Source: Luidia sarsii (Eukaryota > Echinodermata > Asteroidea > Paxillosida > Luidiidae). Taken from it: a stretch of DNA of 64,000 nucleotides. Every line of letters starts with the position of its first letter. Position 1 is the first letter of the stretch. The translations under genes were made by a program, and so were the position numbers. The notes under the pieces are model-generated. The model was not told the origin of the DNA. It did not search any database and saw only the letters and a list, made by a program, of their open reading frames with translations. This document shows positions 3,501 through 61,790 of this stretch, piece by piece. The DNA is taken from positions 695,764-759,763 of the forward strand of contig OX465113.1 of the NCBI GenBank assembly GCA_949987565.1. The letters are read 5' to 3'.

Positions 3501-6500
3501 TTCAAACAACGCATTTCAGGGCTTTAGGAAAGAAAGAAAAATTCATTGTGTTTGAGAAAGGTCATGCTAGGATCGAAACGTTAGGCCCTCCTTTTTTAAA
3601 AATAAATTGTGATAACAAAAAATAATTAATGAAGTTAGCATAAATAAGTACTTTTTCAAGATTGAAATTCATTGAAAAAATGGAAAAGAAAATGTTCACT
3701 GGACTAGTATAATATCAGCAATGATAAAGAACTCCAAGTTTCCCGGTTAATATCGACAAAGCACAATCCGTATGTTCAGGCATTTGTGTGATGGAGACGA
3801 AGCCTGAGCCCAAGCCTGATCCGGGAATTCGCAAAGGGCCATAGAGAAAGAGAGAGGGGTAAGAAGAAAAAAAGGGGCAGTCACTTTGAGGACATTGTCC
3901 CTTCACCTCACCTTCCGTACAGTTCAGCTCCGTGTAACCAGCAGCGCAGGAACATCCGTACGGGTCTGGGAGGCAGAGGAGTCTACCTCGGCACGCATCG
4001 CCATGCGGGTCCGTCTGGTTCGGACAGTTGTGGCTGGCTGTCTTGCCGAAGACATTCCTACCGTGAACTATCACACCAAGTCCAAGCCAAGATGTCAATT
4101 AAGTCAATAATCCCATTTCATGGCAATAGATTTGGCACATACTAACCTAACACTCAATATGCCTTCACTGTCTTTCTCACTGCGGAAAGGCCAAGCCAGG
4201 ATCGAAACGTCAGATCCTTTTTGAGTGAGATTGGCATTTTATTAATTTCAGTAAGTAAACAATTATTGTTTACATTTCTTTGCATTTGAAAAGTTGTTCA
4301 AAAGTTTCTTTATTTCTTTGACTTTTTCAAAATTACTTTGCATTTACGTACATTATCTGTGCAGCATTTTAGTAATGTTTACATCACATAGTTTGGTTAC
4401 CTTTCACTTTTAGTTTCTGCCTTTGAGAAAGGTTCGGCAAGGATCGAGACATCGGGTTCTCTAAACGTTTCACGACTGCATTTGGGTCATTTCGATCAGA
4501 TCAGTGACCGCTTGCAATATTTATTAATCAATTAACATTCTGTCTCTTTACATTGTTTTCTTTAGCGAAATGTTTGTCAACCATTTTCTGACATGACAAT
4601 CCATATAAGTTGATGAGATGATCGTGTTCTCACCGAGTTGGCAGCTGTCCCCACTAAAGCCCGGGGGACAAACGCATGCACCTGTCCGGTCGTGGCACAC
4701 ACCCCCATTGTAGCAGCGACGACAGGTGTCTTGGCAGGAAGGTGGGCCCCACATGCCGTCCGCGCAATCTGCAAAATATCCTTGGTGTTATTAACATGGC
4801 GCGGTGGTAGGCCTACGATTTGGATGCGCTTATTCTTCACTGGATATCAACAATACAGGGGGTTTTTTTGGGGGGGGGGAAACGCCTATCAAAAGGTTGG
4901 GTAGCTCAGTTAGTCGCATAATTTTATACTCTGAGATTTTTTATTCAACTGAAAATAGCAAACGATATCCATACATGGAACAGCATGGTGGAAGTGTATT
5001 GTTTCGTTACATTTGATGTCATTTTGCCTTTGGGAAAGGTCCTTAATCCCTCTACATTTTCGTTTAAGTACAAAAAGTAGTGCTGAGTAGAAAAAAACAA
5101 CAGGTTAAAGAATGACATGCCTCTGACAATGAGTCTGGAAATGCCGTGAAGACGAAGCAACTCATGACCCTCCACAAAGCAGGTGTAGACTCCAGCATCA
5201 GTTGCAGAGACGTTGACAAGAGTCACACTGAGGTTTCCATTCCAGTCCGTCAAGACATCGCCTCCGTCTCGTCTCCACCGGTACTCGTCACTCGGCGGGC
5301 TCAGGGCCTTCATCTGCAAGACGACCGTGTCTCCAGCGCTTGCCACGTACGTCCGCTCGGCGGGACTTACGTGGACGGAGCTGACTGCAGGACACGAGGA
5401 GAGATCACATGGCACTGATGAATCTCAGACAGTCCTGACAATCAAAGCTTCCTTAGAATTGTTGCCGAGAATGAAGATTAAAACCTGCGTTCACACTGGA
5501 CTTATTCATGTCAAACTACTGCGACTTTGCTGAAGATTGACAAACTTAAATCCAGTGGGAACTCCTGGCAAACTAAAATCCTCGTTAAATTTCCGCCGGC
5601 CTTAATGTAACGCTAACACACGTGTTCGCGGAAACCTTCCGCTCAGCCACCGTAGATCAACAGCACCCACATTAAATTGTATGACATTTTACCAGCTGTT
5701 CACGGCAAATAAGCTTTCCATCAGTATCCGAAGGTTTGCGGTGACACCATGTTTAAGGTCTCTTAAAGGAGAGGTGTGGTTCTGAAAAGAACCTGAGTGG
5801 TAACCCGACGTTTCGACCAGTATGCTCTGGCCGTCATCAGGAGAACCGCCAGAGCATACTGGTCGAAACGTTGAGTTACCATTCATACATGGTGTCACCG
5901 CAAACCTTCCTATATCGATTCACCCACCATGAAAAGCCTTAAGTCTTATTCTTTCCATCAGTTTAAAAGGTAAGGTCGGTACGTGGATACGCTAAGTATA
6001 TTTACACTGGCGGTGAAAGAACAAGCCTAATGGGAACACGGCTTCTGATGAGTTGAGTATTTCCTGCTCCCTTCATGGTTTCACTTACCACTTTCAGGTA
6101 GAACGACAGACTGAACAGTCTCGGTTTCGTCATAGTTGGTTGCCCTAGCAAAGAGTAGCCCCGTTCGGTTGAGAGCACCAGACTCCGGTAAGGAAAGTAC
6201 CCGGACTGCACAGCCCAGCGATGGGTCGTACATGGCTAGAGCTCCGGTTGGGAGTGCATCCTCGGCTGCACCTGTCGTCCCCTGACGACCAAACGAGACA
6301 CCTGCTGTGACGTCCCCTGGTCCTTTGTAGGCTGCAATGATAGCATCCCCATTGCCTGTGACAGGGAGGACGGCGGGGTTCACAACCAGAGTAATGTCCA
6401 TGCTCCACCCTGTACAAGAAATCAAAAGACAGCAACTTATTCAGAAGACAGCAACTTATTCAGAAATACAAATCTGTATCGCATTACTGCCCGTATGACT

Positions 6501-9500
6501 AAATATACCATTTTCACTAAATTTCATTTTTTTTTTTCTAAATATTTCACAAAAGATCCCAGGTATCAGAAATTCAACAATTAAAACTACCAACTCCATT
6601 TCTTTGATTATTCGGATTTGTTTAATAGAAATTCCCTCCCAGCCACCAGAGGGCGTTCGTTATAACTCTGCAATTTAGAAGGCCTTAAGATTCAATCCTA
6701 GCAGGACCTTTCTAAAACGACCTTTCATTGAGAGAGGTTGTGCTAGATCGAAACGTCAGGACCCTGCATATTTGTGAGATTTGAATGTTGACATTTACAT
6801 CAATAATCCATTTGCATAGTTAATTTTGTGTACTTTTTCCTCCGCATTTATTTTCAGCTTCAAGTAAATTTCTGCTGACGTCTGTATTATTAATCTCATT
6901 GAATATTGCAAGTGTACAAGGTCTTGTTGCGGTGTCGTGCTCACCTCCTCCGATAGAAGTCATTTCAGAGTCCTTGACTTCATCGACGTAGACTTCGCTC
7001 AGGTGGAGAGGATTGAGCGAAGGTAATTCCACACTCACATATTCGGCCATAAAGACGGCATCCAACTTAAATTCAAGGTCTTCTCCGCTATTTGCTTGAT
7101 CAAAAGTGACTGGTGATCCAATCTCTTCATTGTCTGTGCGAAGTGAGTTCAAACCGGCCCTCACAACGGCTCCTGCTAACCTGGCGTCTGTAAATCATTG
7201 AGTAAAAAATATGTTATGTCTACCTTGTATTAACACACGGTGGTCAAGCATGGCCAATAACCTCGGACATAGAAAGCGTGTGGAGAACTGAGAAATGTGG
7301 TATCTTAGGAAGATGTAGAAGATCCCCTTGGCAGATAAAGTATGTAGTGAGTACCGGGTAACAGAAAGCGGGTAGGTGAAATAAAAGCCAAACCAATTGA
7401 AATTCCATCCCGAGAAAAGGTGAGAGAGTGGGGGAAAGTGAAAAAAAAAAAAACTTCACAGTTATTTAGTAGGGTGTAGGTGCCGAACAAGATTTATTCT
7501 CTGAAATTCCTGCATTGTCCTATTCGTGACTGTTTACAATGTCGTCTCATCTCGGTTTGCCTCAAGCTTTGTTTTGTTTTAGTATCGCTAAGTGTACATG
7601 TTCTTTTGGGGGTAGTTTTCCTTCATGGATATTGCTTTCAATGTCATTACTTTCAAAATGTCTACTTTTTCCTGTAACGGATAATCATATTAAAACACGC
7701 AATGCGGTTTGAAAGCCAATTTTGTGGGTGTTAAAATAATGAGAACCTGAAATAGAGAATGATGTTTCAAATGGTAACAGTTAGAAATCATGTCTATTCT
7801 CATCATTGCGTATAGCCCTTCAACTGGGATTATTGTTGCTATTATATTCCACAGACAGTTTTACAACTGTTAGGGAGCTCTATAATTACACGCGTAGGTC
7901 TATGTATCTACATTGCATTTGCTTCGGTTGTTTTAAGAAAAGATCCGCCTTACCGTATGTGTCCTGTCTATTTACGACGATAACTTTTCGCAAGCAGTAT
8001 ATTTCACGCAGATCCGCCAACCACCATGCGTTGGTTTCTCGCACTAAAAGAAAATGTCATATGAACCATTAAACAATCAATAATAAGACTTCAGGCTTTG
8101 CTGACTCCAACATTAGCTAACAATTTTGGGGGCCTGTTGTCTCCTGTTGGGTTTAGCAGTGTACAGCACTAAAAACTGTGTTGATGATTGTTGGGGTCAG
8201 CATGGTTGTCTCTGGCCTGGCAGTCACACAATGAAGACAGTCAAAAAAATCTATAGAAAAGCCCCAAAACAAAGGGCCTAAAGGGAAAGACCCCAAAGAA
8301 ACGGCTCAAGAGAAAAGGCTCAAGAGAAAAGGCACAAAAGAAAAATCCCAACAGAAAAGGCCTAACAATTGCCTGTTACTTGAGTGTTAGTCTTTGTTGG
8401 GATCAACACTGTACAATACAGTTGGATTTTGTTGGGCCTGGCATTGTATGCAAAGTTACTGCAATATTACCATCATTGCAGGACCCTGCTGAACCCAACA
8501 GTATCCACTGTTGGATACTGTTGGGATCAGCAGGCTTCACACTTTCATGCTTGTTGGATACTGTTGGGATCAGCAGGATAGAGGTAGGCTAACAGTGAGG
8601 GGGGTAGGGTTAATTAAGAGACCTTTACATGGCGTCATCGCAAACCCTCCTATTATCATTAACCAATCAATATTTGCTCACAGCTCCTGAAATAACGGTT
8701 GCCCTGACCTTCCGTTCACAACACATTCAGGCACAACACGTCTACATTCTCGTTGATCTCTATGCCAGGCAAACGTTAGCGGTGAATGTAATAACCTTTT
8801 TCTTCCCAATTCGAAAAATAGCACACAAAAAAATGTGACTGGATCGGGACTTGAACCCGAGACCTCTGGTCTTGCGTACCATTGCCCTAGCCACCTGAGC
8901 TATCCAGCCGTTTCCATGGCATTACAATGAGTGGCTTACGCTATGTTCAAGTCCCAAAATTACCTGAGAAAAAATATATCGACAGCGTCAACTGAAAAAT
9001 TATTTTTAGGAATGAAAGGCTTAGACAGTCTGCCAAATCAAAGGCACAGCATTAAGGCTATTCAGTTTACTGCATTGTTCTATACCTCCTCACTCCCTGT
9101 CCTGTCCTGTCCTGTCCCGTCCTGTCATGTCCTGTCCCGTCCCGTCCTGTCCTGTCCCGTACTGTCCTGTCCTGTCCTGTCCTGCCCTGTCCTGTCCTGT
9201 CCTGTCCTGTCCTGTCCTGTCCCGTCCCGTCCCGTCCCGTCCTGTCATGTCCTGTCCCGTCCCGTCCCGTCCCATCCTGTCCCGTCCTGTCCTGTCCCGC
9301 CCGTCCTGTCAGTCCTGCCCTGTCCCGTACTATCGTGTCCTGCCCTGTCCTATCGTGTCCTGTCCCTTCCTGTCCTGTCCCATCCTGTCCTGTCCCGTCC
9401 TGTCCTGTCCTGTCCTGTCCTGTCCTGTCCTGTCCCGTCCTGTCCTGTCCCGTCCCGTCCCGTCCCGCCCGTCCTGTCAGTCCTGCCCTGTCCCGTACTA

Positions 9501-36700: not shown

Positions 36701-39392
36701 AATCCACCCCAGCAAAGATAGTCGACTATATGAGTTTGTAAAGACTGCAACCTGGAGATAATAGTCTGCCGATGTGTTAAACCAGAGGTCTCGGGTTCAA
36801 ATCCCAGTTCAGGGAAGTCTTCTTTGCCATTTATCAATTTGTTTTAAAGTATTTCCTTTACTTTTTTCATTTACAATAACCAGTTTTGAATTTCATGGTT
36901 TTAATGATAAATTCTCAGAAATTCCATCCCTTTCAACCTTCCATTTCAATTTCTTAGGATGGTTGAATACCTGGAGTGTTGAAGTTATAAAAAGTTACTT
37001 TTCCAAAATTTTCTTTATTCTCAAAAGTTAACTTTTCTCAAAGAAAGGTCCTGCTAGGATCGAAACATCAGGCCCTCTAACTTTCGAGATTCGTGTATTG
37101 TAGGTCATTTTAGTCAGTGAGTAGTTTGCAACAGTTGTTGTATTAACTTCATTTTCTTTTTTCCTTTCAGAATTTTGGCTTGGATGTTGAAGCATTCCGC
37201 ATGATGAGTGGCAACTGTCCTGAGACACTGCTCCTGCTAGCTTTTAGCTGTTGTGATGTAAGTGTGAGGGGACCCCTAGTGGTTACCAACTCTTTTCAGA
37301 GATAAGACTTGAATGTTTTCTTGGTGGAAATACTAAGTGGAAGGTTTGCAGTGACACCATGTAACACTTCGCTTTCGAGTTACAAGTTAAAGTGGCAAAT
37401 GTGCTCTGCCCTGCCCTGCCCTGCCCTGCCCTGTCCTGTCCTGTCCTTCCCTGCACTGCTCTGTCCTGTCCTGTCCTTCCCTGCCCTGCCCTGCCCTGTC
37501 CTGACCTGCCCTGACCTGCTCTGTCCTGTCCTGTCCTGTCCTGCCCTCCTCTGCCCTGACCTGTCCTGCCCTGCCCTGTCCTGTCCTGTCCTGCCGTGCC
37601 CTGTCCTGCCCTGCCCTGTCCTGTCCTGCCCTGCCCTGCCCTGACCTGTCCTGCCCTGACCTATCCTGCCCTGTCCTGTCCTGCCCTGACCTGCCCTGCC
37701 CTGCCCTGCCCTGCCCTGCCCTGCCCTGCCCTGACCTGTCCTGCCCTGCCCTGACCTGCCCTGCCCTGCCCTGCCCTGCCCTGCCCTGCCCTGACCTGTC
37801 CTGCCCTGCCCTGCCCTGCCCTGTCCTGCCCTATCCTGTCCTGCCCTGCCCTGCCCTGCCCTGCCCTGTCCTGCCCTGTCCTGCCCTGACCTGCCCTGCC
37901 CTGCCCTGCCCTGCCCTGCCCTGCCCTGCCCTGCCCTGCCCTGACTCAAAAGAAGCTCCATCCCATTTACTGCCTAGCAGAACACTACTCATTAACTGCT
38001 TTGTTTTTTTACCCCTACATGTAACTCATGAGACAGATGGAGCCATGCAAGCGGCCAGCTTTCACCGAAGTGGTCCTCAGCATCAGAAACATCGAGACAG
38101 ACTTTGCCCGGCAGACAAAACGGCCCCCGTTGCTATCAGGTAAAAACAGACTACTCTAATGTCTTCAGTTGCAACCCATCTTTGATATTCCATTAAGACT
38201 CAATATTCCTGATAGAGAAAACAATTCCAGACAGCTGATCCAGTATGGCCACGCACTACAGTAGACCAATGATGAAATTACTAGACTCGGGCCACAGTTT
38301 TTTGACACCAATTAGTGGGAAAAGTCTGTTGAAAGTTGTGTCTGGCTCACCGGAGGGGGAATAAGTGCTTCTAATTTGCTCCTTAAAACATACTTGGTCA
38401 ACTCCAATGAAACACTGAGTAGCCAACAGAGAGTAAAATGAGTTTTCCAGACCACTATCCATGTACATGTACGTGTAGGTTCCGCATTGAGTTGGATGAT
38501 CAGATCAGAGAGGGCCTACATTTCAACTCTAGAAGGACCTCACTAGGCAGATTCTGCCTTTGAGAAAGGTCCTGCTGGGATCGAAATGTCAGGCCCTTTT
38601 ATATTTTCTATAGAATTATATGGTGGTCATTTTAGTGAGTTACCAAATTTCAAAATTTTTGTTTATTACTCAAGGTGATTGTATTGGCAACATTAAGACT
38701 AGTCTTTTCATTAATTTATCATCCATCTGACTTTCTTCTCCTAAGGACGTTTGAGATCTCAATCCACAGTCATCAGTTATGAGGAAGCACCCCTGCCTGA
38801 GGCCAAGTCCCGCCTCATGCGATCCCCGCGCAACTCTGTCGTCCGCAGCCACTCCGACTCCGGATCCCGACCCCGCCACCTGCCCAGCGTCTCCAAGAAG
38901 TGGGTGAACCCCTTTGACACGCCCCACCTGAAGAACGGCCAGACCAAATTGACGGCGCAGACGTCCACCGCCCTCTTTGAGCTGCCGGAGGAGATTCTGG
39001 AGAGTCTTCAGGCTATGTGCATGGAAGACGAAGACGAAGAAGATGAAGACGACTCAGAAGAAACCAGCCAATCCATGAGAAAGAGATCTAAGTCACTGCC
39101 TAATTCACCGACCATACACAGAGTTGGACGCAAGTTTGATGAGAACACCAATTATCTGGAAGTGGGAGGGGACCTTGGCAAAGAGCTGTCAGTAGCTGAT
39201 CGTCGGAAGACTCTATCACCAGGCTTTGTGCCGCCCAACTGGCTGGAAGGATGGAGAACGAGGAGCAAGACAGCCTCAGATTTGACACAGTGTGACTCGG
39301 GATTGGGCTTGCTTTGCGATGAGCATTTGGGACAGCCTGAAGGAGAGATTCGCAGACAAGCTAACATCATCGAGACACTTGAAGACGCTTGA
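21147..39392 (+). CDS. TESK-like dual-specificity kinase (10 exons, complete)
   Basis: Probable orthologue of TESK1/TESK2, cytoplasmic LIMK/TESK-family kinases that phosphorylate cofilin on Ser3 and so control actin turnover. Exons: 21147-21740, 24154-24275, 25677-25725, 32988-33137, 34452-34531, 34990-35074, 36186-36269, 37171-37257, 38037-38139, 38746-39392. The total is 2001 nt, 666 residues plus stop, with every junction in frame. Kinase landmarks are GRGFFSEVYK (glycine loop), VLVLKMN (ATP-binding Lys), IHRDLTSMN (catalytic loop), VADLGLA (DLG in place of DFG), WVSPEN and [13 protein letters not shown]. The tail keeps WVNPFDTP and RSKSLPNSP, as in TESK1. It differs in an N-terminal region of about 190 residues. 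It lies about 9 kb from the Tie-like gene, in the opposite direction. Confidence 0.9.
22732..22875 (+). mobile_element. MITE-like element (TTTCACAAAGCC family) copy 1
   Basis: It starts GGGGTGGATTTCACAAAGCC and contains TTACGATGCATCGTAACTCA. Related copies are at 36570-36716 (reversed) and 39433-39582. The ends are imperfect inverted repeats (GGATTTCACAAAGCC versus GGTCAATTTCATGAAACCC in copy 3). Confidence 0.6.
23100..23600. repeat. ACATGT array with 72-bp higher-order period
   Basis: Runs of the palindromic hexamer are punctuated by AGGCCTACATTATGTACATG at 23321, 23393, 23466 and 23538, intervals of 72-73 bp. It is a minisatellite built from a microsatellite. Both strands give the same Cys/Val/His/Met-rich spurious frames. 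Confidence 0.85.
24154..24275 (+). CDS. TESK-like exon 2: beta3 lysine and alpha-C helix
   Basis: Acceptor GTCTGCAG and donor GTGAGA, phase 0 to 2. It encodes VQHKQTGQVLVLKMNNSQSS, then IQEIQLLKKLQHPNII. The Lys in LVLKMN is the ATP-anchoring residue, and the Glu in IQEIQLL is its likely salt-bridge partner. Confidence 0.85.
24316..24414. repeat. head-to-head pair of tRNA-like 3' halves
   Basis: A minus half (GACTGGATCAGGCTGCAAAC) faces a plus half ending GGTCTTGGGTTCGAGTCCCG. It lies just after TESK-like exon 2 and has the same architecture as 11342-11438. Confidence 0.6.
25375..25430 (+). repeat. hammerhead-like repeat copy, diverged
   Basis: GGAGGTCCTGCTAGCATGGC, then TTCAAAACGTCAGGTGC. 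An insertion breaks the stem. Confidence 0.5.
25465..25645. repeat. hammerhead-like repeat, inverted pair
   Basis: The minus copy (GCCTGACGTTTCGATCCTAT, CAGGACC) and the plus copy (CCTTTGAGAAAGGTCCTGCT, AGGATCGAAATGCC) sit head to head. The pair ends about 30 bp before the exon 3 acceptor. Confidence 0.7.
25677..25725 (+). CDS. TESK-like exon 3: beta4-beta5 and hinge
   Basis: A 49-nt exon between TCCTTGCAG and GTAAAG, phase 2 to 0, encoding LLGVCVHEAKIHGLIE. TESK1/2 have LRFMGVCVHQGQLHALTE at the same place. Confidence 0.85.
26930..27065 (-). repeat. hammerhead-like repeat copy
   Basis: GGGCCTGGCGTTTTGATCCT, AGCAGGACCTTTCTCAAAGG and the shared AATTTGCAAAGTGTTCACTG tail. Confidence 0.6.
28555..28700. 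repeat. hammerhead-like repeat, near-perfect inverted pair
   Basis: GTGGGCCTGACGTTTCGATC...AGGACCTT meets AAGGTCCT...GATCGAAACGTCAGGCCCAC with almost no spacer, giving about 36-bp arms. The shared tail follows. Confidence 0.75.
29757..30215. repeat. AG/GGAGA purine tract
   Basis: About 460 bp of GAGAGA with GGG interruptions and a G-run near 30025-30038, in TESK-like intron 3. All purines are on the plus (transcribed RNA) strand. Confidence 0.9.
30655..30715 (-). repeat. hammerhead-like repeat copy
   Basis: GTGGGCCAGACGTTTCGATC followed by CTAGCAGGACCTTTCTCAAA, a well-kept half copy. Confidence 0.6.
32370..32645. repeat. GCAA/AAGC tetranucleotide tract
   Basis: Degenerate CAAGCAAG and CTAACAAG repeats in TESK-like intron 3, just ahead of exon 4. 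Confidence 0.8.
32988..33137 (+). CDS. TESK-like exon 4: hinge to catalytic loop
   Basis: Acceptor TCTCTTACAG and donor GTAAGG, phase 0 to 0, 50 codons. It reads YINGGDLSSLLLDNKVHL and later LSYLHLHAVIHRDLTSM. HRDLTS is the family-specific catalytic loop. The residue before the metal-binding Asn is Met, where TESK1/2 have Lys. Confidence 0.9.
33241..33352 (-). repeat. hammerhead-like repeat copy
   Basis: GTCGGACGTTTTGATACTAG and CAGGACCTTTCTCAAAGGCA, with the tail (GCAAACTCCTTACTGACT) to the left, in TESK-like intron 4. Confidence 0.6.
33832..33880 (+). repeat. hammerhead-like repeat copy, decayed
   Basis: GCCTTTGAGAAAAGTCTTGC, then TAAGATCAATACATC; the GAAAC element is lost. Confidence 0.45.
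34452..34531 (+). CDS. TESK-like exon 5: catalytic Asn and DLG motif
   Basis: Acceptor TTTGTGTTTAG and donor GTACGT, phase 0 to 2. It encodes NCLVRKNSNGSMHALVADLG followed by LAARIP. The metal-binding Asp is kept. DFG has become DLG, a conservative change seen in some active kinases. Confidence 0.85.
34843..34903 (-). repeat. hammerhead-like repeat copy, decayed
   Basis: TTTGACATTTTGATCAAGAC, then AGGACTTCTCAAGGGC. The outline is kept but the core is lost. Confidence 0.45.
34990..35074 (+). CDS. TESK-like exon 6: activation segment
   Basis: Acceptor CCTCTTACAG and donor GTAAAA, phase 2 to 0. It encodes REMSEKLETVGTPFWVSPEN, then LKGQFYNEK. The WMAPE of TESK is WVSPE here. EKLETVGTPFW aligns with EKLAVVGSPFW. 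Confidence 0.85.
35611..36090. mobile_element. MITE-like cluster with ATTTCATAGAGTTGC ends
   Basis: GCCCAATTTCATAGAGTTGC occurs at about 35615 and 35782, and its inverted counterpart CGACTCTATGAAATTGGCCC ends at about 36088. A fragment sits near 41877. This looks like one or two inverted-repeat elements in TESK-like intron 6, with no coding capacity. Confidence 0.6.
36186..36269 (+). CDS. TESK-like exon 7: alpha-F helix
   Basis: Acceptor TATTTCTAG and donor GTACGT, phase 0 to 0. It encodes [20 protein letters not shown] then PDELPRLH, matching [27 protein letters not shown] in TESK2. Confidence 0.9.
36570..36716 (-). mobile_element. MITE-like element (TTTCACAAAGCC family) copy 2
   Basis: The reverse complement of the copy 1 layout, ending GGCTTTGTGAAATCCACCCC. 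It lies in TESK-like intron 7. Confidence 0.6.
36776..36814 (+). repeat. tRNA-like 3' half
   Basis: AACCAGAGGTCTCGGGTTCA followed by AATCCCAGTTCAG, matching the right half of the other SINE pieces. Confidence 0.5.
37034..37150 (+). repeat. hammerhead-like repeat copy with tail
   Basis: AGAAAGGTCCTGCTAGGATC, then GAAACATCAGGCCCTC and the tail AGTTTGCAACAGTTGTTGTA. It ends about 20 bp before the exon 8 acceptor, so it is next to, or part of, that pyrimidine tract region. Confidence 0.65.
37171..37257 (+). CDS. TESK-like exon 8: C-lobe
   Basis: Acceptor TTCCTTTCAG and donor GTAAGT, phase 0 to 0. It encodes NFGLDVEAFRMMSGNCPETL then LLLAFSCCD, clearly the TESK NFGLD..AF....G.CP..FL.L...CC segment. 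Confidence 0.9.
37340..37384 (+). repeat. terminal fragment of the 5732-type element
   Basis: AGGTTTGCAGTGACACCATG followed by TAACACTTCG. It directly borders the pentanucleotide array. Confidence 0.5.
37403..37944. repeat. CCCTG pentanucleotide array (GGGCA on minus strand)
   Basis: About 540 bp of CCCTG with TCCTG and ACCTG variants between TESK-like exons 8 and 9. The minus strand carries long series of GGG separated by two bases, a classic G-quadruplex pattern. The open frames on both strands come from the stop-free unit. Confidence 0.9.
38037..38139 (+). CDS. TESK-like exon 9: end of kinase domain
   Basis: Acceptor ATGAGACAG (purine-rich, weak) and donor GTAAAA, phase 0 to 1. It encodes MEPCKRPAFTEVVLSIRNIE, with the conserved CKRP..F. 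The frame joins its neighbours exactly. Confidence 0.85.
38505..38650. repeat. hammerhead-like repeat, inverted pair
   Basis: A decayed minus half is followed by GCCTTTGAGAAAGGTCCTGC, TGGGATCGAAATGTCAGG and a remnant of the tail, just before TESK-like exon 10. Confidence 0.6.
38746..39392 (+). CDS. TESK-like exon 10: C-terminal tail and stop
   Basis: Acceptor TTCTCCTAAG, phase 1, with the TGA at 39390-39392. The tail has several basophilic-kinase-type serines (RSQST, RSPRNS, RSHSDS), then KKWVNPFDTPHLKNG, an acidic run (EDEDEEDEDDSEE) and RSKSLPNSPTIHR. The VNPF and RSLPSSP motifs are shared with the TESK1 tail. RSHSDS and RSKSLP could be 14-3-3 sites (inference). Confidence 0.85.
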
Positions 39393-43851: not shown

Positions 43852-43947
43852 GGTTAATTAATTTTCAAGTGTATACCAAAGCCTACAAATTGCAATCAAT
43901 GTCTGTAAGGAAATGTCACCTTTAGCAATAGGTGTATAATACGTCTT

Positions 43948-43983
43948 CTGATGATGGGCAGAGTACACACTACCCGAAACATT
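43948..43983 (+). ncRNA. hammerhead-ribozyme-like core
   Basis: CTGATGA (43948-43954), one T, a stem GGG/CCC closing a loop with CAGAGTACACACTA, then GAAAC (43976-43980) and ATT. As in the 5.8-kb copy, one base separates CTGATGA from helix II. An NUH-type cleavage triplet (AUU) is possible. Activity is unproven. Confidence 0.45.
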
Positions 43984-43991
43984 GAGTTACC

Positions 43992-44007
43992 GGCTCTTTT
44001 CAGAGCC
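43992..44007 (+). promoter_or_regulatory. canonical histone 3' stem-loop sequence
   Basis: GGCTCTTTTCAGAGCC is the common form of the metazoan replication-dependent histone mRNA 3' stem-loop bound by SLBP, and ACAC follows. It differs from the 5778-5793 copy by a paired T-A to C-G change in the stem. No histone gene is present. Confidence 0.7.
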
Positions 44008-44799
44008 ACACTCCTTCTTGAAAGAGAAGTGCTACATGGTGTCACCGCAAACCCTCCGCTGTGTATAATACTCTTAGGACGAAGATACTGCAGCTATTGG
44101 AAAGCAAACAAAGATGAGTACACAGCTGACTTTTAAGTGAATAGTTTCGCTATCTGTCTGATGGAAAAGATAAACTTAATTTGTCAGCTTTCATCCTCGA
44201 TCTACCCTGGATGAAAACAATCCTAAATGGCTTAAGTATCCTACCTAACTATGATTTGAATTTATAATCAGTTAACTAAGAGTTTTTTATTTCTTTGTTT
44301 GCGCCAAAATTTGATTTGATTTGATTTGACACTTCTTCCAGCCTCAGTTTGGATTATTACTCAGTTATAGAATAACCAGCCTTTGTTTTGTGTGAAACTT
44401 TGTGTGATTTGTATGAATTAAAGATGAAATTGTATTGATTTTGTAAGGATTATTTGTAAAACACATTTGTATCATAACAGCCATATGGAAACAAAATGTA
44501 TAATTATGTAATATTACAATCAAGTTGTAAAATTTGTACAGTGTATAAAACGGAAAAACACATTAAAATAATTTCAGTATAGTACTGTTTTGAATTGACT
44601 GAATAATTCTATTTTTCTCTAGTTTATATGCAGAAGAATTTAAAAAGAATTCAAATAAATAGCAATGCAGAAGGAAAGTTGTCTCAAGTCATTTGTTTTA
44701 TTTCTTACGCTTGGGGTTTTTATTTTCATTTATTAGAATGCTGCGTGGTGCTTGTTTTAAAAGTTCACTGAATAATTTCTAAAAGAAAATTAGCAAAGA

Positions 44800-46539: not shown

Positions 46540-46696
46540 GTAAGTCTATAATTAAGAAACACAAATCAGTTGAAATACAGGACGTTAAACAAAAACAGTA
46601 ACAAAAGGCAGCACTGGGAAAGATGTTATCTTTGAATGCAAATAAGGGAGGAATCAAACTTACCAACTGGAGAAAATGCTTGATTCTGGGAGGGGC

Positions 46697-49600
46697 AATT
46701 TTCTGAGGCAGTTTTCTGAGACAATTCTCAGAGATGGATTTCCGAGTTGTTTTTCGAGGACGATTTTTAGAGATGATTTTCGGAGATGATTTTCAGAGAT
46801 GATTTTCGGAGACGATTTTCGGAGACAATTTTCGGAGACGATTTTGAGAGACGATTTTGAGAGACGATTTTGAGAGACGATTTTGAGAGACGATTTTGAG
46901 AGACGATTTTGAGAGACGATTTTGAGAGACGATTTTGAGAGACGATTTTGAGAGACGATTTTGAGAGACGATTTTGAGAGACGATTTTGAGAGACGATTT
47001 TGAGAGACGATTTTGAGAGACGATTTTGAGAGACGATTTTGAGAGACGATTTTGAGAGACGATTTTGAGAGACGATTTTGAGAGACGATTTTGAGAGACG
47101 ATTTTGAGAGACGATTTTGAGAGACGATTTTGAGAGACGATTTTGAGAGACGATTTTGAGAGACGATTTTGAGAGACGATTTTGAGAGACGATTTTGAGA
47201 GACGATTTCCTAAGACAATTTTTGATGCCATTTTCAGGAGTGGTTTTCGCATGCAATTTTCGAAGACGATTTTGAGAGACGATTTTGAGAGACGATTTTG
47301 AGAGACGATTTTGAGAGATGATTTTTAGAGACGATTTTCAGAGATGATTTTCGGAGACGATTTTCGGAGACGATTTTGAGAGACGATTTTTGGATGCAAT
47401 TTTCAAAGACGATTTTCGGAGACGTTTTTGGAGACGTTTTTTAGAGAAATTTTTTTTTGAGATTTTTTCCAAGACGATTTTCGGAGACGATTTTGAGAGG
47501 CGATTTTGAGAGACGATTTTGAGAGACGATTTTGAGAGACGATTTTGAGAGACGATTTTGAGAGACGATTTTGAGAGACGATTTTGAGAGACGATTTTGA
47601 GAGACGATTTTGAGAGACGATTTCCTAAGACAATTTTTGATGCCATTTTCAGGAGTGGTTTTCGCATGCAATTTTCGAAGACGATTTTGAGAGACGATTT
47701 TGAGAGACGATTTTGAGAGACGATTTTGAGAGACGATTTTGAGAGATGATTTTTGGAGACGATTTTCAGAGACGATTTTCGGAGACGATTTTCGGAGACG
47801 ATTTTGAGAGACGATTTTTGGATGCAATTTTCAAAGACGATTTTCGGAGACGTTTTTTATGACGTTTTTTTGAGAAATTTTTTTTGGAGATTTTTTCCAA
47901 GACGATTTTCGGAGACGATTTTGAGAGACGATTTTTGGATGCGATTTTCGGAGACGATTTTCGGAGACGTTTTTTGGAGATGATTTTCAGCAATTATTTT
48001 CCGAGACGTTTTTTGGAGACGTTTTTTGGAGACGATTTTGAGAAACGATTTTGAGAAATGATTTTGAGAAACGATTTTGAGAAATGATTTTGAAAAACGA
48101 TTTTGAGAAACGATTTTGAGACGATTTTCTAAGACAATTAGTCGATGCCATTTTGAGCAGCAGTTGTCGAAGACGATTTTCGGAGCATTTTTTAAAGATG
48201 ATTTTCAGAGATTTTTTTTTGGAGACGATTTTCGGCGAAGATTTTTGAAGATGATTTTCAAAGACGATTTTCAGAGATGATTTTCGGAGACGATTTTCGG
48301 AGACGATTTTGAGAAACAATTTTGAGAAACGATTTTGAGAAACGATTTTGAGAAACGATTTTGAGACGATTTCCTAAGACGATTTTCGGGGACGATTTTC
48401 ATAGACGATTTCGTAAGACAATTCTTTTGCTGCCATTTTCAGGAGCGGTTTTCGCATGCAATTTTCTAAGACGATTTTGAGAGACGATTTTCGGAGAAAA
48501 TTTCCTAAGACAATTTTTCGATGCCATTTTCAGGAGACTTTTTGGAGATGATTTTCAGAGATTTTTTCCGAGACGATTTTCGGAGATGATTTTCGAAGAC
48601 GATTTTCGGAGACGATTTTGAGAGACGATTTTTTGATGCGATTTCGAAGACGATTTTCGGAGACGTTTTTGGAGATGTTTTTTAGAGATGATTTTGAGAG
48701 ATTTTTTCGGAGAAGATTTTGAGAGACGATTTTCGGAGAAGATTTTTGAAGACGATTTTTGGATGCGATTTTCAAAGACGATTTTCAGAGACTTTTTTTG
48801 AGATGATTTTCAGAGATTTTTTCAGAGACGATTTTGAGAGACGATTTTCGGAGACGATTTTGAGAGACAATTTTTGGATGCGATTTTTGAAGACGATTAT
48901 TAGAGACGATTTTCGGAGACGTTTTTCGGAGACGATTTTTGGAGCATTTTTTAGAGATGATTTTCAGAGATTATTTTTGGAGACGATTTTTGGAGACGAT
49001 TTTTGGAGACGATTTTGAGACGATTTTCTAAGATAATTTTTCGATTCCATTTTCAGCAGCGGTTGTCAAAGTTGATTTTCAGAGACGATTTTCGAGGACG
49101 ATTTTCGTAGACGATTTCGTAAAACAATTTTTCGAGGCCATTTTCAGGAGCGGTTTTCGCATGCAATTTTCGAAGATGATTTTGAGAGACAATTTTCGGA
49201 GACGATTTCCTAAGACAATTTTTCGATGCCATTTTCAGGAGCGGTTTTCGCATGCAATTTTCAAAGACGATTTTGAGAGACGATTTTCGGAGACGTTTTT
49301 CGGAGACGATTTTCGGAGCATTTTTTAGAGATGAATTTCAGAGATTATTTTCGGAGACGAATTTGAGAAACGATTTTGAGACGATTTTCTAAGACAATTT
49401 TTCGATGCCATTTTCAGCAGCGGTTGTCGAAGACCGATTTTCGGAGACGATTTGCGAAGATTTTCGGAGACGATTTTTGGAGACGATTTTCGGAGAGGAT
49501 TTTGAGAAACGATTTTGAGACGATTTCCTTAGACAATTTTTCGATGCCATTTTCAGCAGTGGTTTTCAAAGACGATTTTCGGAGACGATTTGCGGAAACG

Positions 49601-50095
49601 ATTTTCGGAGACGATTTTCGGAGACGATTTTCGGAGACGATTTTCAGAGACGATTTTCAGAGACGATTTTCGGGGACGATTTCGTAAGACAATTTTTGTA
49701 GATGATTTTGTAAAACAATTTTTCGAGGCCATTTTCAGGAGCGGTTTTTGCATGCAATTTTCGAAGATGATTTTGAGAGACGATTTTCGGAGACGATTTC
49801 CTCAGACAATTTTTCGATGCCATTTTCAGGAGCGGTTTTCACATGCAATTTTCAAAGACGATTTTGAGAGACGATTTTTGGGGACGATTTTGAAAGAAGA
49901 TTTTTGGATGCGATTTTCGGAGACGATTTTCGGAGACGATTTTCGGATACGTTTTTTAGAGATGATTTTTAGAGATTATTTTCGGAGACAATTTTTGGAG
50001 ACGATTTCCTAAGACAATTTTCGGAGACGATTTTCGGAGAAGATTTTTAAAGACGATTTTCAAAGACGATTTTCAGAGATTTTCGGAGACGATTT
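46697..50095. repeat. 13-bp satellite array 1
   Basis: Unit GATTTTGAGAGAC and the variant GATTTTCGGAGAC. Positions 46840-47203 are exactly 28 uniform copies. Elsewhere the array is diverged and interrupted by an 80-bp motif with TCGATGCCATTTTCAGGAGC and GGTTTTCGCATGCAATTTTC. The minus strand lacks stops in all frames of the pure unit, so long Ser/Lys-rich frames appear without coding. Confidence 0.9.
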
Positions 50096-53000
50096 TGAGG
50101 ATTGGTGAATGGGCCGCTCTACAAGCACGGTCATCGTCAGATCGTCATCCCCCTGCTTCCGGATCCTTGTGACATGACATTCTTGCAAGAAGTGGAGGCT
50201 GTCTTCACAGATGTATCTATGGTAATGTAAAATGATTAGAATTGAGTGTTAAAATGGACTCATTCTTTTTGGTTTATGAATCAGAAGATTAAGACAGTCC
50301 GACATCCTCCTCAGAAGAAAATAAGAAAGGATTACACAGAGAGGTATACAACAAAAGAATGCTTTGTTTTTGTTGTTTTCTTTTTAGTTTTTTCATTTAC
50401 CTGAGGATTGGTAAATTGACCGCTCTACAAGCAGGGTCATCGTAGATCATCATCACCTCCCCCCCTACTTCCGGATCCTAGCGACGTCTGCAGTTATAGA
50501 GTTCCTTGAATCTCTATCTTAGAGGAAGTAGATGTTGTCTTCTCATGTACCTATGGCAACGCTAAAGGATGAGAAATGAGTGATACCATTGGCTGATTGA
50601 GTTTGGTTTTTATAAATAGCTGGTAACACAGTACAATCCCCTAAAAGATAAGAGAACAAAAGCTAACCCAGAAGGGTATACAGCAAACAACCTCTGTGTT
50701 TTGTTTTGTTCTCTTTTGTTTTGTCTGTTCATTTACCTGAGGATTGGTGAATGGACCGCTCTACAAGCAGGGCATCGTAGATCAGCATCCCCCCTGCTTC
50801 CGGATCCTAGCGACGTCAGCAATCAGAATTCTTTGGACTTCTTGCAAGAAGTGGAAGTTGTCTTCACAGATGTTTCTATGGCAACTCTAAAGGATGAGAA
50901 ATGAGTGATACCATTGGCTGATTGGGTTTGCTTTTTATCAATAGCTGGTAACACAGTACAATCCTCTAAAAGATAAAAGAACAAAAGCTAACCCAGAAAG
51001 GTATACAGCAAACAACCTCTGTGTTTTGTTTTGTTCTCTTTTGTTTTGTCTGTTCATTTACCAGAGAATTGGTGAATGGACCGCTCTACAAGCAGGGCAT
51101 CGTAGATCTAGATCAGCATCCCCCCTGCTTCCGGATCCTAGCGACGTCAGCAATCAGAATTCTTTGGACTTCTTGCAAGAAGTGGAAGTTGTCTTCACAG
51201 ATGTTTCTATGGCAACTATCAATGATAAGAATTGAGATAGAATGGACTTATTGATTTTGGTTCATGATTCAGAAGATTAAGACAATCAGACAACCCCCTA
51301 AAAAGAAAAGGAAAAAGAATTATCCAGAAAGTTTTTAACAATTTTTTTGTTTTGTTTTGTTTTCTTCTGTTTTGTCTGTTTATTTTTTAGTCTTTTATAT
51401 ACCTGATCATCATCAAATAGTCATCCCCCCTGCTTCCGGATCCTAGTGACGTCGGTAGTCGGAGTTCTTGGGGTCGTCTTCTCAAATGTATCTATGGCAA
51501 CAAATAGAGAAAAAAAATATCTGTGACATATAATGGATAGAACTGGCTTATTTTTTCTTTATTCAATAGTTTGCTTTGTTTTATTCAGGTTTTTCTTTCC
51601 ATTTGGGCCTACTTGAGGATTGGTGAATGGACAGCTCTACAAGCAGGGCATCATAGATCAGCATCCCCCCTGCTTCCAGATCCTAGTGACATCTGCAATC
51701 AGAATTCCTTGGACTTCTTGCAAGAAGTGAAGGATGTCTTCACAAATGTATCTATGTGAAAGTAAAATGATTAGAATTGAGTGATACAATGGAGTCACTG
51801 TTTTGGTTTATGAATCAGAAGATTAAGACAGTCTGACAATCTTCTAAAAAGAAAATAAGAATGAATTACACAGAAAGGTATACAACAAAACAATGCTTTG
51901 TTTTTGTTTTTTTAGATTTTTCATTTACCTGAGGATTGGTGAATGGACCGCTCTACAAGCAGGGCATCGTAGATCACCATCTTCCCTGCATCCGGATCCT
52001 AGCAATGTCTGTACAGTAGTTAGAGTTCCTTGAATCTCATCTGTCTTGGTAAAGTAGATGTTGTCTTCTCATTTATCTAAGGCACAATGCAAAAGGACAA
52101 CAAAATGAGTGATACAATGGGCTCATTGTTTTGCTTTTTATAATTAGTTGGTAACACACCTTAAAAGGGAAAAGAACAAAGGGTAACTCAGAAAGGTATA
52201 CAAAGAACAAATTCTTTGTTTTGTCAGTTCATTTACCTGAGGACTGGTGAATGGACCGCTCTACAAGCAGGGCATCGTAGATCAGCTTCCTCCTGCCTCT
52301 GGATCCTAGTGACGTCAGCAATCAGAATTCTTTGGACTTCTTGCAAGAAGTGGAAGTTGTCTTCACAGATGTTTCTATGGCAACGCTATAGGATGAGAAA
52401 TGAGTGATACCATTGGCTGATTGGGTTCACTTTTTATAAATAGCTGGTAGCACAGTACAATCCCCTAAAAGATAAAAGAACAAAAGCTAACCCAGAAAGG
52501 TATACAGCAAACAACCTCTGTGTTTTGTTTTGTTCTCTTTTGTTTTGTCTGTTCATTTACCTGAGGATTGGTGAATGGACCACTCTACAAGCAGGGCATC
52601 GTAAATCAGCATCCCCCTGCTTCTGGATCCTAGCGACGTCAGCAATCAGAATTCTTTGGACTTCTTGCAAGAAGTGGAAGTTGTCTTCACAGATCTTTCT
52701 ATGGCAACGCTATAGGATGAGAAATGAGTGATACAATTGGCTGATTGGGTTCACTTTTTATAAATAGCTGGTAGCACAGTACAATCCCCTAAAAGATAAA
52801 AGAACAAAAGCTAACCCAGAAAGGTATACAGCAAACAACCTCTGTGTTTTGTTTTGTTCTCTTTTGTTTTGTCTGTTCATTTACCTGAGGATTGGTGAAT
52901 GGACCGCTCTACAAGCAGGGCATCGTAGATCAGCATCCCCCCTGCTTCCGGATCCTAGCAACGTCTGTAGTTAGAGTTCCTCGAATCTCATCTGTCTTGG

Positions 53001-55805
53001 TAAAGTAGATGTTGTCTTCTCATTTATCTAAGGCGCAATGAAAAAGGACAACAAAATGAGTGATACAATGGGCTCATGATTGTTTTGCTTTTTATAATTA
53101 GTTGGTAACACACCTGAAAAAAAGAAAAAGAACAAAGGGTAACTCAGAAAGGTATACAACGAACAAATTCTTTGTTTTGTCTGTTCATTTACCTGAGGAT
53201 TGGTGAATGGACCGCTCTACAAGCAGGGCATCGTAGATCGCCATCCCCCCTGCTTCCGGATCCTAGCGACGTCATCAGCAATCAGAAATCCTGGACTTCT
53301 TGCAGCCGGAATTAGTGGAGGTTGTCTTCACAGATGTGTGACAGTGTCTATGGCAAAGAAAAAGTATATAGTAATAAAATGGACTCATTGTTTTTGGTTT
53401 TTGAATCAGAAGATGAAGACAGCCAGACATCCTCCTAAAAAGAAGAGAAGAAAGAATAACCAAGAAAAGTATGAACAAATGAATGCTTCGTTTTGGATGG
53501 TTTTTTTTGTTGATTTGTTTAACTATTTTTCATTTACCTGAGGATTGATGAATGGACCGCTCTACAAGCAGGGCATCGTAGATCAGCTTCCCCCTGCTTC
53601 CGGATCCTAGCAACGTCAGCAATCAGAATTCTTTGGACTTCTTGCAAGAAGTGGAAGTTGTCTTCACAGATGTTTATATGGCAACAATCAATGATAAGAA
53701 TTGAGATGGAATGGACTCATTGATTTTGGTTTATGATTCAGAAGATTAAGACAATCAGACAACCCCCTAAAAAGAAAAGGAAAAAGAATTATCCCGAAAG
53801 TTTTGAACAATTTTTTTGTTTTGTTTTGTTTTCTTCTGTTTTGTCTGTTTATTTTTTAGTCTTTTATATACCTGATCATCATCAGATAGTCATCCCCCTG
53901 CTTCCGGATCCTAGTGACGTCGGTAGTCAGAGTTTGTGGGGTCGTCTTCTCAAATGTATCTATGGCAACAAATAGAGAAAAAAAATACCTGTGAGATATA
54001 ATGGATAGAACTGGCTTTTTTTTTCTTTTTTCAATAGTTTCCTTTGTTTTATTCAGGTTTTTCTTTTCATTTGGGACTACTTGAGGATTGGTGAATGGAC
54101 TCCTCTACAAGCAGGGCATCATAGATCAGCATCCCCCCTGCTTCCGGATCCTAGTGACATCTGCAATCAGAATTCCTTGGACTTCTTGCAAGAAGTGAAG
54201 GATGTCTTCACAAATGTATCTATGTGAAAGAAAAAATTATTAGAATTGAGTGATACAATGGAGTCATTGTTTTGGTTTATGAATCAGAAGATTAAGACAG
54301 TCTGACAATCTTCTAAAAAGAAAATAAGAATGGATTAAACACAAAGGTATACAACAAAAGATTGCTTTGTTTTTGTTTTTTTAGATTTTTCATTTACCTG
54401 ATGATTGGTGAATGGACCGCTCTACAAGCAGGGCATCATAGATCAGCTTCCCCCTGCCTCCGGATCCTAGCGACGTCAGCAATCAGAATTTCTTGAACTT
54501 CTTGTAGCGTAGAGGTCGTCTACACAAAATAATGTATCTATGGGAAAATAAAATGATTAGAATTGAGTGATAGAATAAACTGATTATTTTGGGTTAATTA
54601 TGAATTAGAAGATCAAGACAGTCTGACGAACCTCCTAAAAAGAAAGTAAGAAAGGATTACACAGAAAGTTATACAACAAACGACTTCTTTGTGTTGTTTT
54701 GTCTATTCATTTACCTGAGGATTGGTGAATGGACCGCTCTACAAGCAGGGAATCGTAGATCGACATCCCCCCTGCTTCCGGATCCTAGCAACATCAGCAA
54801 TCAGAATTCCTTGGACTTCTTGCAAGAAGTGAAGGATGTCTTCACAAATGTATCTATGTGAAAGTAAAATGATTAGAATTGAGTGATACAATAGAGTCAT
54901 TGTTTTGGGTTTATGAATCAGAAGATTAAGACAGCCAGACATCTCACTAAAAAGAAGAGAAGAAAGAATTATGCACAAAGGTATACAACGAACGACTTCA
55001 TTATTTTCTTTTGATTTATTTGGTTTTGTCTGTTCATTTACCTGAGGATTGGTGAATGGACCGCTCTACAATCAGGGCATCGTAGATCAGCATCCCCCTG
55101 CTTCCGGATCCTAGCGGCGCCTACAGTTAGAGTTCCTTGGGCTTCAGTCTTGGAAGAAGTAAATGTTGTCTTCTCACATTTCTAAGGCAACGCAAAAGGA
55201 TGAGAACTGAGTGATGCAATCATGACAATTAGCTGATTGGTTTTGCTTTTCATAATTAGTTGTTAACCTTACCCCTTAAAGGGAAAAAAGAACAAAGGCT
55301 AACTAACCCAGAATGATATACAATAAATGAATTCTGGGTTTCATTTTGTTTTGTTTTGTTTTGTTTTGGGTTTTTTTGTTTTGTTTTGTTTTGTCAGTTC
55401 ACTTACTGGAGAATTGGTGAATGGACTGCTCTACAAGCAGGGCATCGTAGATCAGCTTCCCCCTGCTTCCGGATCCTAGCTACGTCAGCAATCAGAATTC
55501 CTTGGACTTCTTGTAGGATGTGGAAGTCGTCTTCACAAAATAATGTATCATGGGAAAGTAAAATGATTAGAATTGAGTGACAGAATGGACTCATTGTTTT
55601 TGGTTTATGAATCAGAAGATCAAGACAGTCTGACAACCCTCTAAAAAGAAAGTAAGAAAGGATTACACAGGAAGGTATGCAACAAAAGACTTCTTTGTTT
55701 TGTTTTGTTAGTTCATTTACCTGAGGATTGGTGAATGGACCGCTCTAGAAGCAGAGCATCGTAAATCAGCATCCCTCCTGCTTCCGGATCCTAGTGATCA
55801 GCAAC
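50096..55805. repeat. module train 2 (19 copies)
   Basis: Copies near 50115, 50417, 50756, 51084, 51370 (short), 51635, 51953, 52257, 52587, 52910, 53214, 53560, 53870 (short), 54102, 54419, 54737, 55070, 55430 and 55740. The two short copies keep only CATCATCAGATAGTCATC and the CTGCTTCCGGATCCTAG core. Subtypes recur in the same order as in train 3. Confidence 0.85.
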
Positions 55806-55874
55806 TTATTTTCTTCCCTTTCTCTAGCCTTGGATTTTTGGTGAACAAGAGTTGACCTAAATCTTTTTTCCTAG

Positions 55875-55926
55875 TTTGACAGAAAGCAATTTCATATGGT
55901 CACCCTCTCAATATTGTTAGCAGTTG
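55875..55926 (+). other. candidate 52-nt exon, copy 2
   Basis: Same sequence as 46488-46539, with CTTTTTTCCTAG before and GTAAGTC after. About 90 bp on, GATGTTAG followed by CTTTGAATGCAGATAAGG offers an in-phase second exon, as in copy 3. Confidence 0.4.
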
Positions 55927-56086
55927 GTAAGTCTATAATTAAGAAACACAAATCAGTTGAAAGACAGGACATTAATCAAAAACAGTAACAAAAGGCAGCA
56001 CTGGGAAAGATGTTAGCTTTGAATGCAGATAAGGGAGGAATCAAACTTACCAAGAGGAGAAAATGCTTGATAATTATTGGGAGGGG

Positions 56087-60900: not shown

Positions 60901-61790
60901 TATGAATCAGAAGATTAAGACAGCCAGACATCTCCCTAAAAAGAAGAGAAGAAAGAATTATGCACAAAGGTATACAATTAACGACTTCATTATTTTCTTT
61001 TGATTTATTTGGTTTTATCTGTTCATTTACCTGAGGATTGGTGAATGGACCGCTCTACAAGCAGGGCATCGTAGATCAGCATCCCCCCTGCTTCCAGATC
61101 CTAGTGGCGCCTACAGTTAGAGTTCCTTGGGCTTCAGTCTTAGAAGAAGTAAATCTTGTCTTCTCACATTTCTAAGGCAACACAAAAGGATGAGAACTGA
61201 GTGATACAATCATGACAATTGGCTCATTGGTTTTGCTTTTCATAATTAGTTGGTAACCTTACCCCTTAAAGGGAAAAAAAGAACAAAGGCTAACTAACCC
61301 AGAATGATATACAATAAATGAATTCTGGGTTTCATTTTGTTTTGTTTTGTTTTGTTTTGGGTTTTTTTGTTTTGTTTTGTTTTGTCAGTTCACTTACCGG
61401 AGAATTGGTGAATGGACTGCTCTACAAGCAGGGCATCATAGATCAGCTTCCCCCTGCTTTCGGATCCTAGCTACGTCAGCAATCAGAATTCCTTGGACTT
61501 CTTGTAGGATGTGGAAGTCGTCTTCACAAAATAATGTATCATGGGAAAGTAAAATGATTAGAATTGAGTGATAGAATGGACTCATTGTTTTTGGTTTATG
61601 AATCAGAAGATCAAGACAGTCTGACAACCCTCTAAAAAGAAAGTAAGAAAGGATTACACAGGAAGGTATGCAACAAAAGACTTCTTTGTTTTGTTTTATT
61701 AGTTCATTTACCTGAGGATTGGTGAATGGACCGCTCTACAAGCAGGGCATCGTAAATCAGCATCCCTCCTGCTTCCGGATCCTAGTGATC
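57930..61790. repeat. module train 3 (13 copies)
   Basis: Copies near 57950, 58255, 58585, 58918, 59218, 59560, 59870 (short), 60100, 60415, 60727, 61053, 61430 and 61735. The type at 59218 (also 45700 and 53214) has GCAGCCGGAATTAGT or a near variant. In it a plus frame stays open through the lysine-rich segment (KTARHPPKKKR). Confidence 0.85.

Follow-up and report, generated by a model that had tools for sequence, protein, structure and literature searches.

The described systems closest to the repeat analysed here are the pseudo-LTRs (pLTRs) of Penelope-like retroelements, the small hammerhead ribozymes and the 3' ends of replication-dependent histone mRNAs. The Penelope copies of Adineta vaga have head-to-head inverted pLTRs, an optional tail of 31 bp and duplications of 8-10 bp, together with a TATA box and an ORF that begins inside the pLTR (PMC3846280). 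In an Anolis Penelope element, according to the accessible part of PMC11167929, the ORF begins at stem II of the hammerhead and reverse transcription is initiated 111-118 nt inside it, with an optional 30-40 bp tail located between two start sites; the same part reports that the Anolis hammerhead gave no cleavage without protein and no reads ending at the cut site. Minimal hammerheads that lack helix III are the published Penelope-like form (PMC6155905), while retrozymes have type I hammerheads of the classical form, arranged as short tandem repeats (PMC7229834). A 2007 paper, in its accessible part, described replication-dependent histone genes as the sole genes then known whose mRNAs lack poly(A) tails (PMC1924863), and in the mouse H2a pre-mRNA the purine core pairing with U7 snRNA reads AAAGAG (PMC7026596). 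No report combining the histone stem-loop or SLBP with transposons stood among the papers listed by a search of the open-access literature with few subscription papers included.

The window, that is, the whole stretch of 64,000 nucleotides of Luidia sarsii that was analysed (assembly GCA_949987565.1, contig OX465113.1, positions 695,764 to 759,763), holds two copies of this repeat, named here A44 and B5 (Table 1). A sequence-only reading had noticed in both of them CTGATGA, a stem, GAAAC and a histone-type stem-loop in the same order, and this was confirmed at the sites concerned, whereas the purine core, a third, decayed copy, two bare ends and the target duplications had been missed. A44 is a complete insertion, bounded by an 11-nt direct repeat (the target duplication), and as a single half it gives no RNA fold signal (z -0.08). 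B5 contains nested inverted repeats, 41 nt at 90% and an outer 33 nt at 88% complementary, and its RNA fold reaches -121.8 kcal/mol (z -17.5). In the decayed copy, a duplication of TTTTCAGA breaks the stem-loop and the right hammerhead arm is gone. As to the surroundings, fibronectin III and immunoglobulin domains occur in open frames of the minus strand at 93-581 and 4945-5424, so that B5 may stand in an intron of a receptor-like gene; a GGGCA-type simple repeat (37361-37660, minus) abuts the end of one copy, as if seeded by the stem II letters CTGCCC; 46660-63869 holds long minisatellites, whose minus-strand open frames are of the KIVSQNRLSKSSL type; and two tRNA matches are present, at 8836-8909 (minus, 45.6 bits) and 17314-17386 (plus, 39.4 bits).

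Table 1. Coordinates of the repeat copies and their parts within the 64,000-nt window.
Feature	Position	Strand	Remarks
A44, single pseudo-LTR half-unit with short 3' end	43943..44060	+	118 nt; aligned with 39 other halves
A44 target duplication, left, GTGTATAATAC	43932..43942	.	direct repeat
A44 target duplication, right, GTGTATAATAC	44061..44071	.	direct repeat
A44 hammerhead-like core	43945..43986	+	motif and alignment; stem I CTT/GAG
A44 CTGATGA	43948-43954	+	
A44 extra T	43955	+	
A44 stem II	43956-43961 with 43970-43975	+	imperfect hairpin, one C-A mismatch
A44 GAAAC	43976-43980	+	predicted cut after 43983
A44 histone-type stem-loop GGCTCTTTTCAGAGCC	43992..44007	+	11 nt past GAAAC
A44 purine core GAAAGAGA	44020..44027	+	histone-downstream-element-like; AAAGA 13 nt after stem-loop
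A44 conserved end CATGGTGTCACCGCAAAC	44035..44052	+	18-mer match
B5, head-to-head inverted pair of halves	5726..5950	-	225 nt; tail on 5950 side
B5 target duplication, 12 nt	5714..5725	.	direct repeat; ACTGATGGAAAG on minus strand
B5 target duplication, 12 nt	5951..5962	.	direct repeat; ACTGATGGAAAG on minus strand
B5 hammerhead-like core	5804..5843	-	CTGATGA 5834-5840, GAAAC 5810-5814, predicted cut after 5807
B5 histone-type stem-loop GGTTCTTTTCAGAACC	5778..5793	-	RF00032
B5 purine core TTAAGAGA	5759..5766	-	AAGAG 13 nt after stem-loop
B5 conserved end, right half	5734..5751	-	18-mer match
B5 conserved end, inverted left half	5888..5905	+	18-mer match
Third, decayed inverted-pair copy	about 15236-15415	-	left end scores only E 0.078
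Bare conserved end	8628..8645	+	18-mer match, 2 mismatches
Bare conserved end	37344..37361	-	18-mer match, 1 mismatch; beside GGGCA-type simple repeat

Both copies belong to a large family. The 18-mer of the conserved end, singled out already by the sequence-only reading, was found in 10,594 exact copies in the 471-Mb genome (5299 forward and 5295 reverse), against none in either direction for the reversed 18-mer; the insertions are fewer than this number, since inverted pairs carry two 18-mers each. For closer study, 133 sites with up to three mismatches to the 18-mer (100 of them exact), in 78 loci, were taken from one end of contig C1; the sample is non-random, and the conserved end lies 3' of the stem-loop in all sampled sites because the sites were found by that end. 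The common order in the subfamilies b, g, a and d is as follows: CTC, CTGA(T/A/C)GA, hairpin, GAAACGT(C/T), GAG, spacer, stem-loop, purine core and CATGGTGTCACCGCAAAC, the last, optional part of the unit being a tail past the conserved end. The alignment A2 consists of 40 rows, namely A44, B5 and 38 of the 41 halves extracted from the 133 sites, with the misparsed rows L035m617, L040m723 and L079m761 left out. In public collections, the 18-mer occurred in two bacterial contigs and no viral one and a 17-mer variant in six viral contigs, all with flanks that look unrelated; the joined pattern gave no matches there, and a literature search with the letters of the repeat returned nothing relevant.

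The anatomy of the insertions points to a retroelement, as the sequence-only reading had proposed and as the target duplications around both window copies support. A flanking direct repeat of at least 10 nt was found in 13 of 33 inverted pairs (32 from the sampled loci plus B5), compared with 19 of 1056 mismatched pairings. In each of these 13 pairs the repeats stand 8-17 nt from the conserved end on one side and 38-51 nt on the other, so that the optional tail, of about 40 nt, is one-sided. The target duplications are variable in length, mostly 8-13 nt. Among the single halves, 9 of 41 rows have a flanking repeat of at least 8 nt, a count which has no separate null and includes one tandem (L036) and one repeat that falls inside the tail (L080). 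With six real reference halves as targets, 129 of the 133 sites could be aligned, and 56 of the 129 begin in the opening 10 nt of the hammerhead. Of the 725 pairwise alignments starting at the conserved end, 708 lose downstream homology 30-59 nt beyond it; 16 in-register alignments reach more than 75 nt past it and look like other repeats. The core of the b type contains an ATG, which in L033m704 is separated from the short end by 114 nt; neither the a type nor the g type has an ATG there. Upstream of the hammerhead, the motif TATAAG occurs in the longer copies (L039 and L051), and L082 has ACATAAG.

The units resemble Penelope pLTRs (PMC3846280, and PMC11167929 in its accessible part) in the inverted head-to-head pairs, the one-sided optional tail, the short variable duplications and a TATA motif upstream in long copies. 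They may also share a hammerhead at the ORF start: in the b type the 114 nt from ATG to short end compare with the 111-118 nt of the Anolis element, and 28 of 35 halves keep the frame between CTGA and the stem-loop. They differ from the pLTRs in the published descriptions, so far as these are accessible, in having a histone stem-loop and a purine core within the unit, and from Penelope elements in that the sampled copies have no attached enzyme ORF. Like retrozymes (PMC7229834, accessible part), the sampled copies would be hammerhead-bearing, non-autonomous retroelements of an animal, but the units are single or inverted and bear a tail, with tandems only in L036 and L054 among the loci read. 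No shared body adjoining the tail was recognised in the 133 sites, no ORF after the tail is common to the copies, and no enzyme ORF or autonomous partner was found beside the sampled units, which counts against the main reading. Matches to GIY-YIG are abundant in the genome (at least 150 scored of 1354 candidates, with open frames up to 962 aa), and the loci inspected belong mostly to one family with other ends and without the stem-loop. Nevertheless, judged by anatomy and not by enzyme, A44 and B5 are very probably pLTRs of an abundant Penelope-like family.

Some observations were made on the neighbouring elements. The 3' end of the GIY-YIG family (L101-L118, L123, L124) has CTTTGAGAAAGGTCCTGCTAGGATCGAAACGTCAGGCC, a hammerhead-like motif, and no histone stem-loop, and two pairs of its matches are about 3190 bp apart. 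Upstream of the unit in L051, on the minus strand, there is a second, unrelated motif CTGATGA-A-stem-GAAACGTC, also with one extra nucleotide, and a frame ending in REAIEICKQDTVPQEIGYHLSDI, about 230 nt before a TATAAG; this frame end may resemble the C-terminus of GIY-YIG retroelement proteins.

In the hammerhead-like core, the conservation of CTGA, A9 and GAAAC is partly by construction, because the motif by which the rows of A2 were picked prescribes CTGA and A9 and some letters of GAAAC. The core has the form CUGANGA...GAAA...UH, and the positions left free fit hammerhead behaviour: N7 is T in 23, C in 10 and A in 7 rows, and H17 is C in 27, T in 11, A in 1 and G in 1 (n=40). Paired cells make up 88.0% of stem I and 94.0% of stem II, the stem II pair 15-32 being C-G in 20, G-C in 11 and A-U in 6 of 39 rows, and pairing over the whole structure amounts to 94.1% vs 46.7% for the best slid control. 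Both the covariation score (0.227 vs 0.128) and the number of cells with both sides changed (29 vs 10.8) exceed all 500 shuffles; however, there is no excess in the pairs with both sides changed (2 vs 2.9 in shuffles) or in the further pair types (14 vs 16.0), and these two results count against the main reading. Compared with the minimal Penelope hammerheads in the accessible part of PMC6155905, the core shares CTGANGA, stem II, GAAAC, GTH and stem I, as well as the missing helix III, in whose place stands an uninterrupted ACGU by which two molecules could pair with each other, and differs by a stem I of only 3 bp and by one extra nucleotide before stem II. Within the window, the hammerhead-like pattern with a stem of at least 3 bp is expected 0.44 times per shuffled window, and it is therefore weak evidence alone and convincing only at the family level, where N7, H17 and the covariation of stem II bear out the hammerhead-type core seen by the sequence-only reading.

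For the histone-type part, the window itself is already informative. The paired histone-type 16-mer occurs twice in it vs never in 300 shuffles, and the stem-loops of A44 and B5 are a single compensated pair apart, as had been noticed before; a looser scan (16-mer, up to three mismatches) gave 3 matches vs 2.3 expected, so that only exact matches are informative. The Rfam model RF00032 scored 31.5 bits on A44 (43987-44031; E 2.6e-7 in a 401-nt stretch, 4227 families) and 26.4 bits on B5 (5753-5798; E 2e-5 in a 401-nt stretch), both under the curated cut-off of 34 bits, and both stem-loops were absent from the matches of a whole-window Rfam run at that cut-off. Covariance models, proposed by the sequence-only reading as a check, thus recognised the stem-loop of both copies, and the hammerhead families of Rfam gave no match at E<=10 in the A44 and B5 stretches and none in the loci scanned with Rfam.

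Across the family, the mean column conservation in A2 is 0.917 for the stem, 0.975 for the loop, 0.867 for AAGAGA and 0.979 for the conserved end, vs 0.517, 0.613 and 0.466 for the three spacers, and the stem-loop pair 61-72 switches between U-A (24) and C-G (11) in 38 distinct rows with letters. The histone part is thus conserved as a module, the stems and the purine core standing above their surroundings across subfamilies; the supposition of a structural constraint holds, the conservation of stem-loop and core above the flanks is found in the 40 aligned halves, and chance as the whole explanation of the stem-loop is ruled out by this conservation. Among 115 sites with at most one mismatch to the 18-mer, an exact stem-loop lies within 75 nt in 49 and one with up to two mismatches in 73, while the reversed pattern was never nearer than 5 mismatches; the 42 sites without a stem-loop at that tolerance count against the main reading. 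A purine core (AAGAG, AAAGA or AAGAT) is present in 35 of the 40 A2 halves; after an exact stem-loop AAGAG or AAAGA follows in 41 of 49 cases, 34 of these at 13-14 nt, as against 11 of 133 background stretches of 32 nt. A search for U7 of the same species gave no match, and its controls gave none either. Seven matches from 20 loci reach or exceed 34 bits, the best being 37.9 bits.

The host itself offers a comparison. In a genome-wide RF00032 search, 75 of 134,613 candidates were scored, with at least 76 matches, 75 of them over the cut-off; one bacterial control matched, below the cut-off. Among the 12 of 76 matches that were fetched, one (L130) is an H3 gene, its last 64 residues matching Histone H3.2 (E 3e-36), and one (L135) is the element. 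The H3 gene has GGCTCTTTTCAGAGCC-ACAC and a purine core at 13 nt, so that the stem-loop letters and the core spacing of the element equal those of one host H3 gene. The element also agrees with the replication-dependent histone mRNA 3' end in the stem-loop letters followed by ACAC (RF00032; PMC7026596 and PMC1924863, accessible parts), and in AAGAG or AAAGA at 13-14 nt, as in that host gene. The differences are that no histone gene stands ahead, that the mobile unit continues past the stem-loop and that the 5' flank, judged by eye, is GTTACC or CACTCA and not A-rich, which counts against the main reading, whereas the fetched host stretches have ACCAAAC or CCAATC, AAC-rich by the same judgement.

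Among the remaining RF00032 sites, L125-L129, L131 and L133 are other multicopy sequences ending in GGCCCTTTTCAGGGCC with AAAAAAGAGA at 14-16 nt, some with open frames stopping shortly before the stem-loop; three pairs of them lie 7.0-7.4 kb apart and face outward (C1, C3, C12), and they are possibly histone-type ends in another repeat family. Downstream of the site m386 in L055 there are tandem short repeats, each with GCTCTTTTCAGAGC and CTCAAAAGAGAAG, an array of the stem-loop and core amplified on their own.

Several other explanations may be set against the reading of the units as Penelope-like pLTRs with a hammerhead and a histone-type signal. A miniature DNA transposon (MITE) with terminal inverted repeats, which the outer inverted repeats of B5 would recall, is very improbable in view of single halves, A44 included, that were inserted with their own duplications and do not have terminal inverted repeats, and of duplications that are variable in length and stand at unequal distances around a one-sided tail; a plain DNA transposon is ruled out by the single halves with their own duplications and by the one-sided tails. 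A more serious rival, to which we give a substantial though lesser share of belief, takes the hammerhead-like core as a by-product of the palindromic unit that cuts no RNA. It is favoured by the lack of any match to the Rfam hammerhead families, by the reported behaviour of the Anolis hammerhead (PMC11167929, accessible part) and by the extra nucleotide after CTGANGA, which is C in 35 of 40 rows (column 12) and pairs with the catalytic G in the predicted fold. The extra nucleotide, the missing helix III of the Rfam models and the lack of an Rfam match also count against the main reading. An extra nucleotide at the same place is known from a viroid hammerhead. Against the by-product explanation stand an N7 that varies freely and an H17 that is not G in 39 of 40 rows. 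Moreover, among 46 interrupted halves the predicted cut is the exact starting point of 5, vs 0.8 expected if the starts were even, although the positions +10 and +16 hold 4 each; two more halves begin at the cut, apart from flanking letters matching by chance; L054 has two tandem junctions there, CTATA joined to GAGTTACC; and one half in L089 begins with GAGTCACC and has the duplication ACTGTTTTT. Such starts and junctions are no more than suggestive of cleavage; we hold it somewhat more likely than not that the hammerhead-like core is catalytic.

The stem-loop admits two further explanations. It may be the element's own protein-binding hairpin near the ORF start, resembling the histone signal by convergence and having no part in SLBP or U7 binding. 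The Anolis protein needs RNA within the first 172 nt of the ORF, a stretch that would include the stem-loop (PMC11167929, accessible part), and this idea also agrees with the extension of the insertions past the stem-loop and with a 5' flank unlike that of histone genes; but the loop and the purine core are conserved too, at the spacing of the host H3 gene, and another abundant GIY-YIG family of the same genome manages without the hairpin, so that we consider it unlikely. Rather unlikely as well, and the least favoured of the two, is a functionless relic, either an ancient capture of a histone 3' end or coding sequence kept in the pLTR halves. The stem-loop does lie within a possible reading frame (..LFR..), so that coding could account for some of its conservation, a point against the main reading. 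Of 35 halves, 28 preserve this frame between CTGA and the stem-loop, and many copies have a broken stem-loop, which is beyond two mismatches in the 42 sites given above. However, the codon pairs V..T and A..A change together, which keeps the base pair and not the amino acids, and L012 retains an exact stem-loop within an otherwise different interior.

The Penelope-like reading with both RNA signals therefore has to be stated with regard to what RNA is copied. The sequence-only reading had seen the stem-loop as the 3' end of the mobile RNA, a proposal that is not supported in this form, for A44 and B5 extend 53 and 52 nt beyond their own stem-loops, which is also a point against the main reading: the insertions continue at least about 50 nt further, so the copied RNA was not cut there. 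What survives of the RNA life cycle then proposed is a retroelement with a hammerhead-type core and a constrained stem-loop. In the mechanism that we favour, the hammerhead would cut after GUH in the element RNA; since a single molecule cannot form helix III, it would do so either as a dimer or together with the protein of the element. The stem-loop and purine core would act as a histone-type 3'-processing signal for SLBP and the U7 snRNP, so that some of the element RNA would acquire a defined, poly(A)-free end. The template for new DNA copies would be the fraction escaping this histone-type cut, given that the insertions extend across the signal as far as the site where reverse transcription starts (the short end or the tail), and an autonomous Penelope element may supply the enzyme for mobilisation. 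Two RNA fates are proposed, since the stem-loop cannot end the copied RNA: a processed RNA (message or short RNA) and a read-through RNA (template). This whole, namely Penelope-like pLTRs with hammerhead and histone-type processing and a copied read-through RNA, is on balance the best explanation. As to its parts, we hold the chances about even that some element RNA undergoes histone-type processing, and only tentatively propose that the retroelement took over the host histone 3'-end signal (the stem-loop and the U7-binding core at host spacing) into its pLTR beside the hammerhead, with a partly non-polyadenylated RNA of S-phase type and read-through RNA copied back.

For annotation, the present results are a warning that RF00032 matches need not be histone genes, one H3 gene and one element being among the 12 fetched. 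If the proposed reading is true, histone-type 3' ends would have a second user in this retroelement, which carries the signal in thousands of copies; its retrotransposition would be tied to the S phase and to the U7/SLBP machinery, and the numerous natural variants in the genome could serve to work out the rules by which histone 3' ends are formed; the adjoining hammerhead and histone signal would be an RNA-processing circuit open to direct testing.
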